A DNA stretch of 36,880 nucleotides, from positions 1 to 36,880 of IMG/VR virus record IMGVR_UViG_3300009545_000044; one strand, 5' to 3'. Under the pieces are notes generated by a model. The model had not been told where the DNA came from and did not search any database. It worked only from the letters and a program-made list of their open reading frames with translations. This DNA is from a virus. How positions within the stretch are numbered: the stretch's first letter is position 1; every line of letters starts with the position of its first letter. Shown piece by piece: positions 23,456 through 33,738 of this stretch. The translations under genes were made by a program, and so were the position numbers.

Positions 23456-24991
23456 CTACTTGGCCTCTGCTTCAGGGGTCTGCGTCGGGTCGGAGTCTTC
23501 TTCCGTATCCTGATCGTCGCGTAAGGCGGCGGATGTATCGTCGTCCCCATCAAGCCCGGCTTCATGCCTGGCGTTTCTGTGGTTGTCGGCGGTATCGACG
23601 AAGCGAGAGTAGTGACCTTGAAAGGCGACCTCGATCCAGGCAGTAGGACCGTGGCGGTGCTTGGCGATGAACATGTCGGCAAGTCCGGCGCGCGGAGATT
23701 CACGTTCGTAGGCATCTTCGCGGTGGAGCAGGACGACGAGGTCGGCCTGTTCTTCCAGGGTTCCGGAGTCGCGCAGGTCGGATAGCATCGGCCGCTTGTC
23801 CGTGCGCGCTTCGGGGTTCCGATTGAGTCCGGAGGTGGCGACGACGGGGATGCCCAGTTCCTTGGCCATCTGCTTCAGTCCCCGGGCGGTCTCGGCAATC
23901 TCCTGGTATCGGTTGTCCATGGGTCGGGTCCCGTATGTCAAGTCATTGATGCCGTCAACGATCGCCAGACGGAGGTCATGTCGCGCATGAAGGCGACGGC
24001 ACACAGCGCGGATATCGGTGAACGTCATGTTCGGCCGGTCCTGTATAAACAGCGGCGCCTCGGATACCGGGCCCATCCTGCGGGCAATCCTGGCCCAGTC
24101 CTCATCGCTCATCGTGCCGGAACGCACGTGATGCAGGAGGACCCGAGACTCAGCGGATAGAAGCCGAATAATCGTCTCGTTACGCGTGGTGTCCAAAGTG
24201 AACAGCACCGAAGTCAGGCCGTTGCGTACCGAACACGAGCGGGCTAGGTCTAGGGCAAGCGTGCTCTTGCCGACAGCTGCCCTCGCCCCGATGACAATAA
24301 GCTGGCCGGGACGCAGCCCGTTGGTGAGAAGGTCGAGCTCACGGAACCCGGTCGGAATCCCGAAGAACGTCCTAGGCCGGTTTGAGATGGCTTCGATCTC
24401 ATCGAGCGCGCACTCCATCGCCTCGGCGAGGGGCAGAGGCAGCTGTTCATCCCGCATCGACGGTTTGAAAATCTCCTGCTGCGCCATCTCAATAACACGG
24501 TCTGCGTCTTCGCTGGTTCGCGCGGCATAGCTGTGCGCGATGATCCTGCCGGAACTTTCAATGAGGCGCCGCAGCACCGCCTTCTCTCGGACAGTCTCGG
24601 CGTGGTGGCCAGTTTCCGCAGCGCTGGCGACGCTGTTGATCAGCGTGTGGATGTAGGCAGCGCCGCCCGCACGGTCAATGTCGCCGCCTTTGGTGAGTTT
24701 CGCGGCCACCGTCACCGGGTCGGCCGGCTCGCCAACGACGTACAAAGTGGCAATCGCCTCGAACACGATCCGGTGTGCGTGACGATAAAAGTCCCGACCG
24801 CTTACAACTTCAACGGCTTCTGCGATGGCGTCCTTCGACAGCAACATTCCGCCGAGCGTCGCCTGCTCAGCGGACAGGTCGTGCGGCGGAACACGCTCGA
24901 AGACCGGCTCGTCATCGCCGTCCGGGCTGTCTTGAACTGTGGCGGCCATGCCGACGACCGTATCTGACTCCCGACCGGCTTTTGGCTGCAT
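23456..24991 (-). CDS. dnaB: DnaB-type replicative helicase, divergent active site (511 aa)
   Basis: The N-terminal domain FERVPPHDLSAEQATLGGML and the central linker are close to Streptomyces DnaB, the hexameric fork helicase. Walker A is GARAAVGKST near residues 233-242. The arginine-finger region is kept (MFIAKHRHGPTAWIEVAFQG). Three usual landmarks differ: the FSLEM segment with the catalytic Glu reads FTLDT, the Walker B VVDYLQL reads IVDGIND, and the sensor Gln of SQLNR is Gly (SGLNRNPEAR). The enzyme may be altered in ATP turnover. The start is uncertain: ATG 24991 has a weak AGAAAG; ATG 24949 is also possible. It is divergent from the DpdA-like operon. Confidence 0.88.
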   Translation of the reverse strand: MQPKAGRESDTVVGMAATVQDSPDGDDEPVFERVPPHDLSAEQATLGGMLLSKDAIAEAVEVVSGRDFYRHAHRIVFEAIATLYVVGEPADPVTVAAKLTKGGDIDRAGGAAYIHTLINSVASAAETGHHAETVREKAVLRRLIESSGRIIAHSYAARTSEDADRVIEMAQQEIFKPSMRDEQLPLPLAEAMECALDEIEAISNRPRTFFGIPTGFRELDLLTNGLRPGQLIVIGARAAVGKSTLALDLARSCSVRNGLTSVLFTLDTTRNETIIRLLSAESRVLLHHVRSGTMSDEDWARIARRMGPVSEAPLFIQDRPNMTFTDIRAVCRRLHARHDLRLAIVDGINDLTYGTRPMDNRYQEIAETARGLKQMAKELGIPVVATSGLNRNPEARTDKRPMLSDLRDSGTLEEQADLVVLLHREDAYERESPRAGLADMFIAKHRHGPTAWIEVAFQGHYSRFVDTADNHRNARHEAGLDGDDDTSAALRDDQDTEEDSDPTQTPEAEAK

Positions 24992-25110
24992 CGACGCTTT
25001 CTGCACCACAAGAAACCCATTGATGGTTTCTGCGCTTGCCAGCCACAGTAAGCAGCTTTTTTGCATTGCTAAATCAAGACAATGACATATTTGACAATGT
25101 TGGAGCAGCC
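24992..25110. promoter_or_regulatory. Divergent control region between dnaB and the DpdA-like operon
   Basis: The 119 bases are much more AT-rich than the flanks, as expected of promoters. A 7+7 inverted repeat AGAAACC (25011-25017) and GGTTTCT (25025-25031) with a seven-base spacer is a good operator candidate. TTGCAT near 25063 and AT-rich sequence 17 bases further could be rightward promoter elements, but the match is weak. Confidence 0.5.
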
Positions 25111-26667
25111 ATGCTCTACCTGTCCACGCCCTCCAGTCCGGCAGTGCGCGCGGCAATGTCGGCCGGGCTGATCGGCTGCATGACCACCCCGAACCAGCAC
25201 AACCGGATCCCGGCAGGGGCGACCTGGGCCGCGGACAACGGGAAGTTCGGGGCTCACTACGTCGGGGACGACGCCTGGCTGTCCTGGCTCGCTCGGATGG
25301 TCCGGCTCTACGGCACCGAACAGTGCCTGTTCGCCGTGGCCCCGGACGTACCCTTCGACGCCGCCGCGACGCTGAAATGCTCCCAGCGCTGGCTCGCCAT
25401 GATCCAGGCGCTGGGGTTGCCGGCGGCGTTCTGCGCCCAGGACGGCGCCGAGGCCGACGGCATGGTGGAGTGGGACACCTTTGATGTGCTGTTCATCGCC
25501 GGGTCCACGGCTTTCAAGCTCGGCGAGCATGCTAAAGCCCTGGCTGCCGAGGCGATCCCACGCGGCAAGATCGTGCACGTTGGCCGCGTGAACTCCCGTA
25601 AGCGGCTGCTGATCGCCCAGGGATACGGCGCGGCCTCCTGCGACGGTACTTTCCTGCGCTACGGCCCTGACAAGAACCTCCCGAAGGTCCTGGAATGGCT
25701 GGGCCAGGACCAGGCCGCCGCTGCTGTTCGCGTTGGCGCTGACCTGTCCGGCCGACCACGGCACTGGCACCCCAAGCCGTCGTCGTGGATCCGCGCCGAC
25801 GGCCGGATCCACGCCCCCGAGGGCTACCGCACCCACCTGGTCCACGGGGTGCACTGCGACGAGCGGGACTGCCCGGAGTGCATCCACGACTGCGACTGCG
25901 CCCGCTGCGACGGCTGGTGCCGATGCGACCGACCGCCGAACCCGCTCCTTCCTGGAGGCGAGATGCGCTTCTCCGACGACGGCCGCCTGACCCCGGCCGG
26001 CCTGCTGGCGCTGGCTGATGAGCTGGCCGATGCCCTGGGCCCGCCGTGGTTCCACGACCGCACGAACCAGATGTACTACCGCACCGAGCTGGCCAGTCCC
26101 GAGGACGAGTGGCGCATCAGCATCGAGGTCGCCCCCGGTCGGCACAAGGCAACAGCCACGGGCCTGACTCCGAGCTTGGATGGCCGGTGGTGGAGCGACT
26201 GCGACAAGGCGACGATCGGGTTCACCGCCAGCCGCGACCCGGAGGCGATCGTCGCGGACATGCGCCGCCGCCTGTTCCCCGCCTACGCCCGCGCCCTGTC
26301 CATTGAGCGCGCCAGCATCGCCGCCGAACTGGTTCGCCGCAACTATTTCGCCAAGCAGGCCGGGCGCCTTCAGGCCCGCCTGCCAGCTGATGCCCGCCCC
26401 GATCTGAGTGTGCGGGACCACCGATTCGACGCGCACTGGAAGGGCCGCAACGGGTCATACAACCGCGTCGGCCTCGACCACCTCGGCAACACCGTCCGCC
26501 TGGATCTACGCGAGGTGCCGGTGTCGGTCGCGTGCGCCGTCATCGATCTGCTCGGCGGGACCACCCTGGCCCGTCCCAGAACGCGCCGCCGAAGCAGCGC
26601 GCCGCGCCGGCACGCCCGGCGCCGCGCGGCGTCCCGGCGCGGTCGGGCCAAGGCTGGTCGGCCATGA
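25111..26667 (+). CDS. DpdA/tRNA-guanine transglycosylase-like protein with Cys cluster and extra domain (518 aa)
   Basis: Residues 1-200 fit the DpdA/TGT-like barrel that exchanges guanine for a 7-deazaguanine base in phage DNA: MLYLSTPSSPAVRAAMSAGL, TWAADNGKFG, FAVAPDVPFDAAATL with a likely catalytic Asp at 79, DVLFIAGSTAFKLGEHAKAL, VHVGRVNSRKRLLIAQGYGA and SCDGTFLRYGPDKNLPKVLE. Residues 249-272 are a dense Cys cluster (CPECIHDCDCARCDGWCRCD), a probable zinc site. From about 285 a second domain follows, also present in the next gene (KATIGFTASRDPEAIVADMR). An internal ATG at 25963 with GGAGG could make it separately. The main start ATG 25111 has TGGAG upstream. No 7-deazaguanine synthesis genes are visible, so the base would come from the host. 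The family call is by motif memory. Confidence 0.6.
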   Translation: MLYLSTPSSPAVRAAMSAGLIGCMTTPNQHNRIPAGATWAADNGKFGAHYVGDDAWLSWLARMVRLYGTEQCLFAVAPDVPFDAAATLKCSQRWLAMIQALGLPAAFCAQDGAEADGMVEWDTFDVLFIAGSTAFKLGEHAKALAAEAIPRGKIVHVGRVNSRKRLLIAQGYGAASCDGTFLRYGPDKNLPKVLEWLGQDQAAAAVRVGADLSGRPRHWHPKPSSWIRADGRIHAPEGYRTHLVHGVHCDERDCPECIHDCDCARCDGWCRCDRPPNPLLPGGEMRFSDDGRLTPAGLLALADELADALGPPWFHDRTNQMYYRTELASPEDEWRISIEVAPGRHKATATGLTPSLDGRWWSDCDKATIGFTASRDPEAIVADMRRRLFPAYARALSIERASIAAELVRRNYFAKQAGRLQARLPADARPDLSVRDHRFDAHWKGRNGSYNRVGLDHLGNTVRLDLREVPVSVACAVIDLLGGTTLARPRTRRRSSAPRRHARRRAASRRGRAKAGRP

Positions 26668-29439: not shown

Positions 29440-30108
29440 ATGACGATCAACGCCAACACCGTTGTGTTCGTCGGCCTACCCGAGATCGCGAAGATCGTAG
29501 GCTTGACTCGCACACGCATCCACGAGATTGCGGACAACCCCGACTCTGCACTCCGCGTACTCGGGAAGAACGACGCCGTGATTGGTGGCAGACCCGCCTG
29601 GGTACTGTCTCCACTTCTTGCACGTTTGGTCGCCGCGGGCTACACGCCAAGGGATGCAGTAGTCGCAACGCTACGGGAGGAGCGCTCGGTACCAGCGGGC
29701 TGCGTTCCGCTGGGCATCGCTGAAGCTGCCGAGGTCTTGGGAACCAGTGTCGAAACGGTACGGAGCCGGGTTGAAGCCGGAACGTCCGCCGCCGTGTTGT
29801 TCAAGTTCGGACGCGATCGGGCGTTGGACTTGAACGAACTCTTGGCAAAAGCAGCGGAACGCGGACACCCAGTCGATGACGACGCAGCTCAAAGGTGGCG
29901 TCGGATCAACGGCGGCGGAACAACAAATTCGGCCGTCGTCGCCTCAGTGCGCCTCGTCTGCGGCGTAACAGCTGACGATGGGGATACTGCGTTGCACGAG
30001 GTCACACGTCTGCTTCAGAGCCCGGAGCTTCTCAACGCCGCACTCGCGACGCTGGGGCTCCGAGTTGTGTCTAGCACCGTCGAGTCAATTGAGCCTCTCC
30101 CTATCTAG
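29440..30108 (+). CDS. Regulator with two helix-turn-helix-like segments (222 aa)
   Basis: ATG 29440 follows GGGAGGCCGCGC. Two segments look like DNA-reading helix-turn-helix units of the excisionase/MerR kind: LPEIAKIVGLTRTRIHEIAD (residues about 13-32) and LGIAEAAEVLGTSVETVRSR (about 91-110). The C-terminal third is alpha/beta with VASVRLVCGVTADDGDTALH, perhaps for ligand or partner binding. Third codon positions are less GC-biased than those of its neighbours. It lies just upstream of the DUF2637-like gene and might regulate it. A two-headed binder could recognise a pair of half sites. Confidence 0.55.
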   Translation: MTINANTVVFVGLPEIAKIVGLTRTRIHEIADNPDSALRVLGKNDAVIGGRPAWVLSPLLARLVAAGYTPRDAVVATLREERSVPAGCVPLGIAEAAEVLGTSVETVRSRVEAGTSAAVLFKFGRDRALDLNELLAKAAERGHPVDDDAAQRWRRINGGGTTNSAVVASVRLVCGVTADDGDTALHEVTRLLQSPELLNAALATLGLRVVSSTVESIEPLPI

Positions 30109-30153
30109 TAGTCAATCGGCTCTTCACTTCGAACTCTGCTATCGCCCGCGCGT

Positions 30154-30178
30154 CCCGCGGCCATGCTTGCGCCGCGGG
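30154..30178 (+). terminator. Hairpin after the helix-turn-helix gene
   Basis: CCCGCGGC (30154-30161) and GCCGCGGG (30171-30178) form eight perfect GC pairs with a nine-base loop, 45 bases after the stop. There is no T run. Termination is likely but not certain. Confidence 0.5.
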
Positions 30179-30303
30179 TAGATTCCTGCTCCCACCCGCT
30201 GGTAGCCGCCAAGGATCGGCGGCGACCGTGGTTACCGGTGAGGGCAGAGGTGTCTGCCGCACCCAACACACTCATCCGTGAGCAATCTCAGCGGAAGATC
30301 AAA

Positions 30304-30336
30304 GCCCATGGTGGGTAGCGCAGCCCACCGATGGGC
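30304..30336 (+). promoter_or_regulatory. Bulged hairpin/dyad upstream of the DUF2637-like gene
   Basis: GCCCATGGTGGG (30304-30315) and CCCACCGATGGGC (30324-30336) pair over 12 positions with one extra base and an eight-base loop. The right arm contains CCACCGATGG (30325-30334), one mismatch from the CCACCGGTGG palindrome repeated inside the gene. It lies 37 bases before the start, a position suited to an operator read by the same protein. Confidence 0.45.
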
Positions 30337-30372
30337 CGGTTTCCACTACTCCTCCGAGTCTTGAGGAGGTCA

Positions 30373-31812
30373 ATGTCGTCAATCGATGGCAATTCCGAGC
30401 CCACTGCCCGCAGCTTCGGAATCGATTTCTGGATCTACACCGGCCTGGTCCTTGGCGCTTTCGCCTCGGTGTTGGCCAACGTCGCCTACACATTCATCCC
30501 GCCGCACGTTCAGCCGCCTTGGTGGCCTAGGTCGCGGCTGTGGGATCCGGCGGCCTACGTCCCACCGCCGGGAGACGTGGCAGTCGCGGTTTTCTGCCCC
30601 GTCGCGATCTTCATCTTGACCGAGGTGATCACCCGCCCGCGCTGGCGGGAGGGCAAGCTGTCGTTCACTGTCCGTGCCGTCTCAGCGGTGATGGTCGGGC
30701 TACCGGTCGCGGTGGCGTCCTACCTGCACCTGTGCTCTCTGCTGGAGTACTACAGCACTATTCCGGTCATCGCCTACACGCTGCCGCTCACAGTGGACGG
30801 GCTGATGCTGGCCTGCACCGCAGCACTCCAACTGACCGGCACGCAGTCCACTCGGAGCACGGGCGGTCCTGCGTTCACAGATGCCGTCGTTGCGCTGCCG
30901 CACCCCCGGGCAGCGCTCGACGATGCCGAGGCAAATCCCTTCACCGTTGAGGATCAGCCGGGCGACGACGTGGCGTCGCAGTGGTCTGCACTATCCACCG
31001 CTGACGCCACCGGTGGATCCACGTCCCCACCGGTGGGCCCCGCGCCATCCACCAGTGGCCGGCCTCCTGGCCAGGTGGGCCAGCCTTTCCCACCGGTGGG
31101 GGAAGCCGAGCACGCCAGCAGCCCACCGGTGGATTCAACGAAGGATCCTCTCCCACCGGTCGGGGTACTTAGCTCACCGGTGGCCCCACCGGTGGGACTG
31201 CTCAGGCCACCGGTGGGAGCGGTTCTGCTACAGCTTGAACCTCTAAGGCCTGGCTCTAGCCCACCGGTGACCTCTGAAGCCGCCGCCGGCACGGGGCACG
31301 ACGTTCCCGCCCCCACCGATGGCCCCGCGCCGGAGCCGAATATGCGAAACAGTCCCCCAACGGTTGGGCCAAGGAATGTTGGCGTCAGGCTGCCTACCCC
31401 ACCGGTGGGCCTGCTGGGGCCACCGGTGGGAACCGAACATCCCACCGTCAACCAACCGGGGCCACCGGTGGGGTCTGGCTTCAGGGCACCGGTAGACACC
31501 GACCCCACCGGTGGCGCAGAGCAGATCGCTCCGGGGCCCACCAGTAAGGCGGATCAACTCGCTGCCAAGCGTCCGGTGCCCTCCGGTCGACTCGGCGCAG
31601 CGGATCTGTCCGACGGGGAGATCATCAGGCTGGCCGTAGCCAACAACCCGCTTGGCAAGATCACTGGCACGGCGTTGCGGAAAGACTTTGGCGTCGGCCC
31701 CAACCGCGCCGCCCGCATCCGTGACGAGATCCGTAGGCGCCGCGTGGCGGCCAGGCTTGCTGTGCAGATCCATACAGAGATCGCCAGGCGCCGCCACGCC
31801 GAAGAGTCATAG
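30373..31812 (+). CDS. DUF2637/SpdB-like membrane protein with C-terminal helix-turn-helix (479 aa)
   Basis: ATG 30373 follows GAGGAGG. Residues 1-155 form four membrane helices of the DUF2637 plan (WIYTGLVLGAFASVLANVAY, GDVAVAVFCPVAIFILTEVI, VSAVMVGLPVAVASYLHLC, and the family mark PLTVDGLMLACTAALQL). DUF2637 proteins are common on actinobacterial plasmids and some are linked to plasmid spread. Residues about 165-400 are a Pro/Gly/Val-rich linker with many PPVG units. The end SDGEIIRLAVANNPLGKITG, then ALRKDFGVGPNRAARIRDEI, is a helix-turn-helix followed by a basic stretch. A membrane anchor joined by a long flexible arm to a DNA-binding head would tether DNA to the membrane. The linker codons hold a palindrome array that this head may read. 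Confidence 0.72.
   Translation: MSSIDGNSEPTARSFGIDFWIYTGLVLGAFASVLANVAYTFIPPHVQPPWWPRSRLWDPAAYVPPPGDVAVAVFCPVAIFILTEVITRPRWREGKLSFTVRAVSAVMVGLPVAVASYLHLCSLLEYYSTIPVIAYTLPLTVDGLMLACTAALQLTGTQSTRSTGGPAFTDAVVALPHPRAALDDAEANPFTVEDQPGDDVASQWSALSTADATGGSTSPPVGPAPSTSGRPPGQVGQPFPPVGEAEHASSPPVDSTKDPLPPVGVLSSPVAPPVGLLRPPVGAVLLQLEPLRPGSSPPVTSEAAAGTGHDVPAPTDGPAPEPNMRNSPPTVGPRNVGVRLPTPPVGLLGPPVGTEHPTVNQPGPPVGSGFRAPVDTDPTGGAEQIAPGPTSKADQLAAKRPVPSGRLGAADLSDGEIIRLAVANNPLGKITGTALRKDFGVGPNRAARIRDEIRRRRVAARLAVQIHTEIARRRHAEES
31007..31514. repeat. Array of CCACCGGTGG palindromes inside the DUF2637-like gene
   Basis: Ten exact copies start at 31007, 31027, 31090, 31123, 31186, 31207, 31399, 31420, 31462 and 31505. 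Near copies start at 31049, 31153, 31174, 31261, 31313 and 31486. Eight exact copies are read as Pro-Pro-Val-x, but those at 31007 and 31505 are in another codon phase and are read as x-Thr-Gly-Gly, so the conserved unit is the DNA palindrome, not the peptide. Pairs 21 bases apart recur (31186/31207, 31399/31420; 31007/31027 are 20 apart), two helix turns, which suits cooperative binding on one DNA face. Confidence 0.85.
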
Positions 31813-32112
31813 CCGGCGCCACCCTCTGGGGCTGCCACCCTGGTGTCGACTTTTCCCGATTCTGTCTATATGAGGTGCGCGATCAAGGGCTCACCAGAAG
31901 TTTCTTGGCCAGGGTCTTGATTACCTGAACGCGCTTGCGTAGCCTCTTTCTCCACGGGCGAAGCTGTGTCCACACGCCGGCCACCGCCCTCCTCCGAACT
32001 ATCCGTCTAGCCTCCGAGGCGTCCGCCAGGGCCCGGGGGCTAGACGCGTTTCCCTGGCCTGTGTGCGCCTTGTGGCGCCACGGGTGCTGTGTTTCCCACT
32101 TGGAAGGACGCC
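31813..32112. other. 300-base gap with an inverted repeat before the Sak4-like gene
   Basis: No gene is visible. CGTCTAGCC (32004-32012) and GGCTAGACG (32038-32046) form a perfect nine-pair stem with a 25-base loop, 67 bases before the next start. ATCAAG and CTTGAT flank 31884-31920. A promoter and leader for the recombination gene are expected here, but no -10/-35 pair is convincing. Confidence 0.35.
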
Positions 32113-33738
32113 ATGTCCGTTGCCGCACCGCCGCGTTCCGGCGGCCCGACCGACCAATCCGCGCGAGATCCGGCAATCCCGTTCCTCAAAACCCGACTCC
32201 CCACCGGGAAGCCGCCTTGGCCACTGATCTTGATGGCCGGGGTCGACAAGTGCGGCAAGTCGTACGCCGCAGCCGAGTTCTCCGGCTCTCCGCTGGTGGG
32301 CCGTACCTTCTGGATCGAGATCGGGGAGGGCGACGCGAACCACTACGGTGAGGTCCCCGGTGCGAACTACGAGATCTGCGACCACGACGGCACCTACAGA
32401 GGGCTCATGTATGCCGCATGGGCGGCAACCAAGCAGGTCCGGTACGACAACAGGCCGAACGCCATCGTCGTGGACAACGTCACGCAGTTGTGGGAGATGC
32501 TCACTGCTGAGGCTCAGGCGATCGCCAATCGGCGCCGCAAGAACCCGGACTCCGAGGCCACGATCACCATGGATCTGTGGAACGTGGCTAAGAAGCGCTG
32601 GGGTGACTTCATCGATGTGCTGCGCCAGCACGACGGGCCGGTGCTGCTGATCGCCCGGCTGGAGTACGTGACGCTGGTGGATTCCGCAGGCCAGCCCACC
32701 AAAGACCGGGACTGGAAGATCAGGGCCGAGAAGAATTTGCCGTTCGAGGTCGACGTGGTGGTCACGATGCCGGCGTACCGGACCTATGAGATCTCCGGCG
32801 TGCGCTCACTGCGGCTTCAAATCCCGCCTGGGGAGAAGCGGCAGATCCCGGACTTCACCACGCACACGCTGATGGAGCGTCTCGGGCTGGACGCCGCCGG
32901 CGCCACGCAGCCCCGAATCTATGTCGCGCCGCGCCCCGATCCGGCTGACGCCTACGCGCTGACCACCGGAGAACCCGGTCAGGATGTTCCAGGACCTGGC
33001 TCCAGAGACAAGCGCGTAAATGGCGACCAGGTCAGTGAGCTGCTGACGCTACTGGATCAGGTCGGTCCGGCCGACCCGGAGGCGCGCCTGGAGTTTGTGT
33101 CAGGCATCGTCGGTGTCAGGGTCTCCGGCCCCGGCGACCTAGACGCCCAGCAGGCGCAAGAGCTCATCACCGCGCTGGCTCGCATGGCTCATGACGTCGA
33201 CCAGCCGCCAACCACGACGACGCCCCCTGATGAGGCACAGGCTGGGACCTCCACGACCGGCGGCACCGGTCCGCTTCGGAATGGGCTGGATGTGATCCCG
33301 GTCCTGGCCGCGACAGAGGTGGAGCCACCGAGTAGCCGCGGGGAGCCCGAGGACTTCATCGCCTCGCTTGCCAAAGCGAAGCATCTCGACGCGGTCGACC
33401 GGGTTGAGGACCGGTTCACCGACCGCTTCCGCGGCACCTTCATCAACGCCACGCTGTTCGTGGACCTAGCCATCGCCGCGGCAGCACGCCGTGCGGAGCT
33501 TGGCGGTCAAATGCCGCCGATGAGCCCAGCGGCCGCAGCGCTGGCGGCGATACTGGCGCGCGCTGCGGAGTCCACACGCAGCCACAAGGACATCGAGCGG
33601 ATCCACGCGCTCATCCATCACCACGCCGGCATCGGCAACCTTGACTCGGGTGAGAGCCAGGCCCTGATGGCGGAGTGCAAGGAGCTGTATCGGACGGTGT
33701 TCACCGGCAGCCAAGCAGCGCAGCACGCCGTCGCCTGA
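32113..33738 (+). CDS. Sak4-like/RecA-fold AAA ATPase of phage recombination (541 aa)
   Basis: ATG 32113 follows GGAAGGACGCC. Residues about 35-260 form a nucleotide-binding domain: Walker A MAGVDKCGKSYAAAEF (GVDKCGKS at 43-50), Walker B NAIVVDNVTQLW with Asp 121, and the later strands PVLLIARLEYVTLVDSAG and FEVDVVVTMPAY. This is the plan of phage nucleotide-binding proteins of the Sak4/AAA_24 type, which promote single-strand annealing or strand exchange. The rest is longer than usual: a Pro/Thr-rich linker (DQPPTTTTPPDEAQAGTS) and a helical C-terminal domain (SPAAAALAAILARAAESTRS) with LIHHHAGIG. The added domain may bind a partner such as SSB. No exonuclease is seen in the window. Confidence 0.68.
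   Translation: MSVAAPPRSGGPTDQSARDPAIPFLKTRLPTGKPPWPLILMAGVDKCGKSYAAAEFSGSPLVGRTFWIEIGEGDANHYGEVPGANYEICDHDGTYRGLMYAAWAATKQVRYDNRPNAIVVDNVTQLWEMLTAEAQAIANRRRKNPDSEATITMDLWNVAKKRWGDFIDVLRQHDGPVLLIARLEYVTLVDSAGQPTKDRDWKIRAEKNLPFEVDVVVTMPAYRTYEISGVRSLRLQIPPGEKRQIPDFTTHTLMERLGLDAAGATQPRIYVAPRPDPADAYALTTGEPGQDVPGPGSRDKRVNGDQVSELLTLLDQVGPADPEARLEFVSGIVGVRVSGPGDLDAQQAQELITALARMAHDVDQPPTTTTPPDEAQAGTSTTGGTGPLRNGLDVIPVLAATEVEPPSSRGEPEDFIASLAKAKHLDAVDRVEDRFTDRFRGTFINATLFVDLAIAAAARRAELGGQMPPMSPAAAALAAILARAAESTRSHKDIERIHALIHHHAGIGNLDSGESQALMAECKELYRTVFTGSQAAQHAVA

Follow-up and report, generated by a model that had tools for sequence, protein, structure and literature searches.

The window analysed here (the whole 36.9-kb stretch of DNA, an IMG/VR virus record) contains an array of ten exact copies of the palindrome CCACCGGTGG, set within the linker codons of a gene whose protein is predicted to carry a hydrophobic N-terminus and a C-terminal HTH (Table 1). 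The array sites are under selection at the DNA level, since the palindromes persist in diverged linkers and the sites are phased at 10.5 bp across codon phases. We favour, with a probability of roughly 40%, the reading that the array is of origin type, lies in the gene for its own binder, and is occupied by an HTH protein anchored in the membrane.

Table 1. Features of the array gene and its surroundings (positions in the window).
Feature	Position	Strand	Basis
Phage DnaB-like replicative helicase	23459..25156	-	PF03796 E 5e-81
Neighbouring 222-aa HTH (excisionase-like) protein, rival candidate binder	29440..30108	+	TIGR01764 E 2e-4, phrog_66 E 6e-4
Upstream partial site, ACCGGTGA core	30232..30241	.	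aligns with TCACCGGTGG in L082
Upstream one-mismatch site CCACCGATGG	30325..30334	.	aligned bases in closest relative are CTACCGATGG
Array gene, 479-aa protein: hydrophobic DUF2637-like N-terminus, Pro-rich disordered linker, C-terminal HTH	30373..31812	+	translation; homologues L082, L086, L089, L146
Four hydrophobic segments, presumed membrane anchor, residues 15-44, 62-89, 96-125, 129-150	30415..30822	+	
Array, 10 exact CCACCGGTGG	31007, 31027, 31090, 31123, 31186, 31207, 31399, 31420, 31462, 31505	.	
Array, one-mismatch CCACCGGTGG sites within the linker	31049, 31153, 31174, 31261, 31313		
Predicted C-terminal domain, residues 392-479, long terminal helix	31546-31809		AlphaFold model
Predicted HTH core, residues 411-456	31603..31740	+	AlphaFold model
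AAA_24/Sak4-like recombination ATPase, downstream of array gene	32113..33738	+	PF13479 E 5e-8, phrog_1366

The ten exact copies of CCACCGGTGG lie within 31007-31514, as the initial annotation had reported, and the rest of the window has none; the expectation is about 0.2 per window (100 dinucleotide shuffles, mean 0.22, maximum 2). Sites with at most one mismatch number 19 versus 4.5 expected, 15 of which are in the linker, one upstream (30325) and three scattered (184, 21765 and 35857). Near copies, put earlier at about six, are indeed present, but only five stand at one mismatch. Counted from the start codon at 30373, eight of the ten exact copies are in the phase CCA CCG GTG (PPV) and two (31007 and 31505) in a second phase, xCC ACC GGT GGx (TGG), to which near copies 31049 and 31313 also belong; the use of two codon phases had been correctly recognised. 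Nine of the ten PPV tripeptides in the window's array gene are spelled by CCACCGGTG, and PPV is encoded by CCACCGGTG in 20 of 22 cases. CCA accounts for 4 of the 48 Pro codons of the array gene outside PPV and is a minor codon in the phage (29 of 340 Pro codons in the other genes). In 300 shuffles of the synonymous codons of the array gene with the protein fixed, CCACCGGTGG arose 0.45 times on average and never more than 4 times, versus the 10 copies observed, which bears out the earlier proposal that selection acts on the DNA. Sampling codons from the phage's other genes for the same protein gave 0.31 copies. No base flanking the 10-mer carries more than 0.17 bit, which speaks against duplication of longer units as the sole source of the copies.

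Successive gaps in the window array measure 20, 22, 41, 33, 30, 21, 12, 21, 54, 52, 86, 21, 42 and 43 bp. In the window and in the homologous genes L082 and L086, gaps lie close to integer multiples of 10.5 bp, also where the codon phase changes, with a mean cosine at 10.5 bp of 0.79, 0.84 and 0.95, respectively, and a best-fitting period of 10.5-10.75. This phasing was reached in none of 20,000 simulations, even with the codon phase of each gap preserved; the three arrays are not independent, being of common ancestry, and the window passes by itself. Such spacing would place the sites on one face of the helix. The helical phasing is the strongest sign that proteins may bind side by side on the sites, suggesting that the selection on the DNA serves cooperative protein binding.

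Four homologues of the array gene were found, two of them in one genome. L082, in Catenulispora pinistramenti, is 49% identical overall, and L086 is a further copy from that genome; L089 is in another genome, and a more distant homologue is in G010 (L090/L146). The hydrophobic N-terminus is 83-89% identical between the window and L082/L086. Their linkers are rearranged relative to that of the window, with some internal duplication in L086, and the alignment of homologues shows the palindromes persisting while the linker diverges. The codon-shuffle excess is found in three of the arrays, with 10 exact copies versus 0.45 expected in the window, 9 versus 0.83 in L086 and 3 versus 0.27 in L082, which has near copies in addition. 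L089 contains four one-mismatch copies in the gene (0.28 expected) and one exact copy upstream. In L146, four copies of TCACCGGTGA are found, three of them upstream of the gene, and to judge from these sites this distant homologue has switched its palindrome to TCACCGGTGA.

Outside these genes the palindrome is rare. The 11.5-Mb genome of the relative's host contains 53 exact copies of CCACCGGTGG, 12 of which are within two prophage regions carrying the array gene, and 154 copies of a reversed control; CCACCGGTGG is not enriched there. Relatives of the array protein were sought by tblastn among viral contigs, phages and plasmids, and none was returned, and the 28 loci with CCACCGGTGG pairs in viral contigs include no comparable array. 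Nor was a comparable array present in the 30 DUF2637 loci fetched from 14 actinobacterial genomes, and arrays as a general trait of DUF2637 genes were therefore rejected. At L103:2888-3030, four CGGATATCCG palindromes form two pairs, with 25 bp inside a pair; another DUF2637 ORF is some 800 bases away.

The hydrophobic segments of the array protein were located with Kyte-Doolittle 19-residue windows, and helices are placed in them by a low-confidence AlphaFold model, which for the full-length protein has a pLDDT of 46 and is too poor for judging the membrane part. PF10935 (DUF2637) matches residues 100-154 weakly (E 0.003), with scores of 17.9 and 20.3 bits, under the curated cut-off of 22.8. 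A membrane anchor is likely, given four hydrophobic segments in residues 15-150 and this sub-threshold match; of the membrane anchor and DUF2637 relationship first proposed, the hydrophobic segments thus stand while the DUF2637 assignment falls below threshold. The C-terminal HTH, also noticed at the outset, is supported: residues 392-479, modelled from a two-sequence alignment with a mean pLDDT of 83, are predicted to form an HTH and, after it, a long helix (helices H23-33, H41-48 and H52-87). Foldseek with this domain returned generic HTH matches alone, none with E below 0.001.

The left of the window matches portal, terminase and major head genes, and its right part contains clamp, methyltransferase, DnaB-like helicase and Sak4-like genes. 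The array gene sits within this early replication/recombination module. It is followed by the AAA_24/Sak4-like ATPase gene in the window and in G010; in the C. pinistramenti copy a Rad52-like annealing protein (L082:9644-11032, phrog_3290) replaces the ATPase, a module swap in which the related C-terminus is kept in all. Prophages in two genomes of the Catenulispora family have terminases 90-91% identical to that of the window and share with it long collinear DNA stretches of 72-94% identity. In the collinear relative G007:C24, the prophage end carries a tyrosine integrase (phrog_1 E 2e-28; Pfam E 4e-8) about 190 bases from a tRNA-Ala gene, beyond which lie ordinary metabolic genes (by eye). 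The window ends before the corresponding region; the integrase and tRNA-Ala of this relative indicate that the phage is temperate and integrating. The suggestion that the element is a phage-plasmid was rejected on the same grounds. No ParA or ParB was recognised among the genes tested. At G001:C2:67858-69629 the terminase of a prophage is split and contains internal stops; this prophage therefore looks partly decayed, although its array gene is intact.

In the origin reading, HTH dimers would occupy one palindrome after another at distances of two, four or more helical turns, hence on one DNA face, and a cooperative nucleoprotein complex would assemble on the array gene itself, with the N-terminal segments keeping it at the membrane. 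After excision, the complex would act as an in-gene origin or initiation complex, in the manner of the iterons inside lambda O, and the copies upstream of the array gene would feed back on its expression. Initiation is proposed as the role of the complex since the phage has its own DnaB helicase and clamp and no recognised initiator: HTH_36 has no match in the window, and none of the genes tested, the array protein included, matches a PHROG replication-initiation family. This gap, the replication setting and the base rate in viral contigs are what favour an origin-type role.

In lambda-type O genes, the iterons are binding sites for the initiator in the middle of its own gene (PMC7466680). The array resembles lambda O/ori in that repeated sites, for which the binder is here a putative one, are located in the linker-coding part of a gene for a DNA-binding protein, within an early phage replication/recombination module, at a spacing of about two helical turns and with a phage-encoded helicase nearby. 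It differs in consisting of 10-15 perfect 10-bp palindromes without a clear AT-rich tract, and the array protein differs from O in profile, in the position of its HTH (C-terminal instead of N-terminal), and in its membrane-like N-terminus. That the array protein is not O-like by profile and that no AT-rich tract adjoins the array argue against an origin: no 40-mer exceeds 0.57 AT in 30001-32200, the best ones near the gene (0.53-0.57 AT) ranking around the window's 99th percentile. In addition, a membrane-anchored phage initiator would be unusual, several unassigned early genes could supply an alternative initiator, and most of the exact L146 sites lie upstream of the gene, which would fit an operator equally well. 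The fuller proposal, that one gene provides both a membrane-anchored initiator or organiser and a phased array in its own linker codons, tethering the phage origin to the membrane, is rather unlikely. If true, it would represent a replication or segregation unit that is membrane-bound and complete in itself, of a kind without a described counterpart in phages.

A membrane-anchored protein could also bind the in-gene palindromes and thereby keep or place phage DNA at the membrane once it is excised or newly replicated, such that it is not lost in the mycelium. The closest described actinomycete case is SpdA2 of pIJ101, which binds sps palindromes inside its own gene, spdA2, and for which loss of the protein or of sps lowers segregational stability (PMC4170104). 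Both systems belong to actinomycete mobile elements and place a short perfect palindrome, varying between elements, within or immediately upstream of a gene that encodes a DNA-binding protein, the binding being predicted in the present case. The hydrophobic DUF2637-like N-terminus also favours this explanation: SpdB2/DUF2637 spreading proteins likewise have several hydrophobic segments and the array protein matches their profile weakly, although below the curated cut-off and in a phage rather than a conjugative plasmid. However, sps is a different palindrome (CGTCACGTGACG) present in 1-3 copies on plasmids, whereas CCACCGGTGG is on a tailed phage, and SpdA is a protein of 117-163 aa with an N-terminal DNA-binding region and no membrane domain, compared with 479 aa and a C-terminal HTH. 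No sequence link between the array protein and SpdA was apparent. Furthermore, the relative with an integrase beside tRNA-Ala points to stable inheritance with no need for partition, and the segregation role proposed initially gains no special support. The parABS arrays of extrachromosomal mycobacterial prophages also provide an actinophage with repeated protein-binding sites, but there parABS replaces the integrase (PMC7157519). A stability function of this kind is less likely than an origin but a serious alternative.

Somewhat less probable still, though also a serious alternative, is an autoregulatory operator or silencer, through which the array protein or a related regulator would repress its own operon via sites in and upstream of the gene. 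Upstream sites are also found in L082, L089 and L146 (three exact copies in L146). However, no promoter was recognised next to the upstream sites, and at least 10 sites deep in the coding region exceed the needs of a promoter operator. The window does contain the dyad described at 30304-30336, but the closest relative has not retained its arms. The region 31880-32060, between the array gene and the Sak4-like gene, contains a dyad (ATCAAGG...CTTGAT), a pair of promoter-like elements (TTGATT-N17-TAGCCT) and a hairpin rich in GC, features that are also present by eye in L082 and L089 and partly in L146 and that are a possible operator and leader. Used as a probe for further members, the leader hairpin returned chance coding matches alone.

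The array is probably bound by the HTH of the protein encoded there. Among the four homologues, the palindrome type correlates with the array gene's own HTH rather than with the neighbouring HTH protein: the HTH cores of L086 and L082 are 76% and 67% identical to that of the window and accompany CCACCGGTGG, that of L089 is 54% identical and accompanies degenerate sites, and that of L146 is 30% identical and accompanies TCACCGGTGA. Another protein could bind the array, be it the 222-aa HTH protein, a repressor of the phage or a factor of the host, its place in the gene then being incidental, and the 222-aa HTH protein is indeed encoded directly upstream of the array gene in all relatives, with 34-83% identity. 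Nevertheless, it is only 34% identical in a contig that shares the window's palindrome, and thus does not track the sites, which makes a different binder quite improbable. Finally, the explanation that a PPVG-rich linker became repetitive in its codons through duplication and codon bias alone, for which the Pro-rich linker and the duplication in L086 might speak, was rejected as highly improbable in view of the two codon phases, the rare CCA at the sites, the 10.5-bp phasing across phases and the unconserved flanks.

Palindrome arrays inside genes are also found in other viral DNA. A scan of viral contigs for three close copies of CACCGGTG returned 48 loci, 14 of which are inside winged-HTH genes by inspection (L007, L038, L040, L042, L044, L052, L053, L057, L061, L063, L065, L068, L077 and L080), while most of the remaining ones look like low-complexity repeats. 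HTH_36 matches 13 of the 14, in five cases under the curated cut-off; L052 has a weak GntR match only. PHROG replication-initiation families were matched at all nine loci searched (L038, L044, L053, L057, L061, L065, L068, L077 and L080) and also at L009 from the first scan, i.e., 10 of 10 tested. Several of these arrays span two or three codon phases, and the CACCGGTG arrays in viral winged-HTH genes therefore probably mark phage origins. The control palindrome CAGCGCTG gave 11 clusters versus 48 for CACCGGTG, but three of the 11 are also in wHTH-like genes (L135, L137 and L139). A particular tie between CACCGGTG and initiators was therefore rejected, and the link concerns in-gene arrays generally. 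The CAGCGCTG cluster in L135 uses two codon phases. At L043:831-899, four copies of TCACCGGTGA with spacings of 20, 20 and 21 bp follow shortly after a winged-HTH-like ORF (198-680) and are thus outside it.

The initial annotation knew of no described case with such a layout, but SpdA2/sps and lambda O/ori precede it. In-gene sites for a gene's own binder are already known, and the membrane-anchored-looking protein looks to be the new feature here. The array would combine these two known systems with such a protein, in a linker whose codons are shaped by a need at the DNA level, with sites on one helix face across codon phases. Palindrome clusters in viral DNA, which often mark winged-HTH initiator-type genes, may allow phage origins to be found from sequence, and the array gene offers a small system in which to test whether phage DNA is tethered to the membrane in filamentous actinomycetes.
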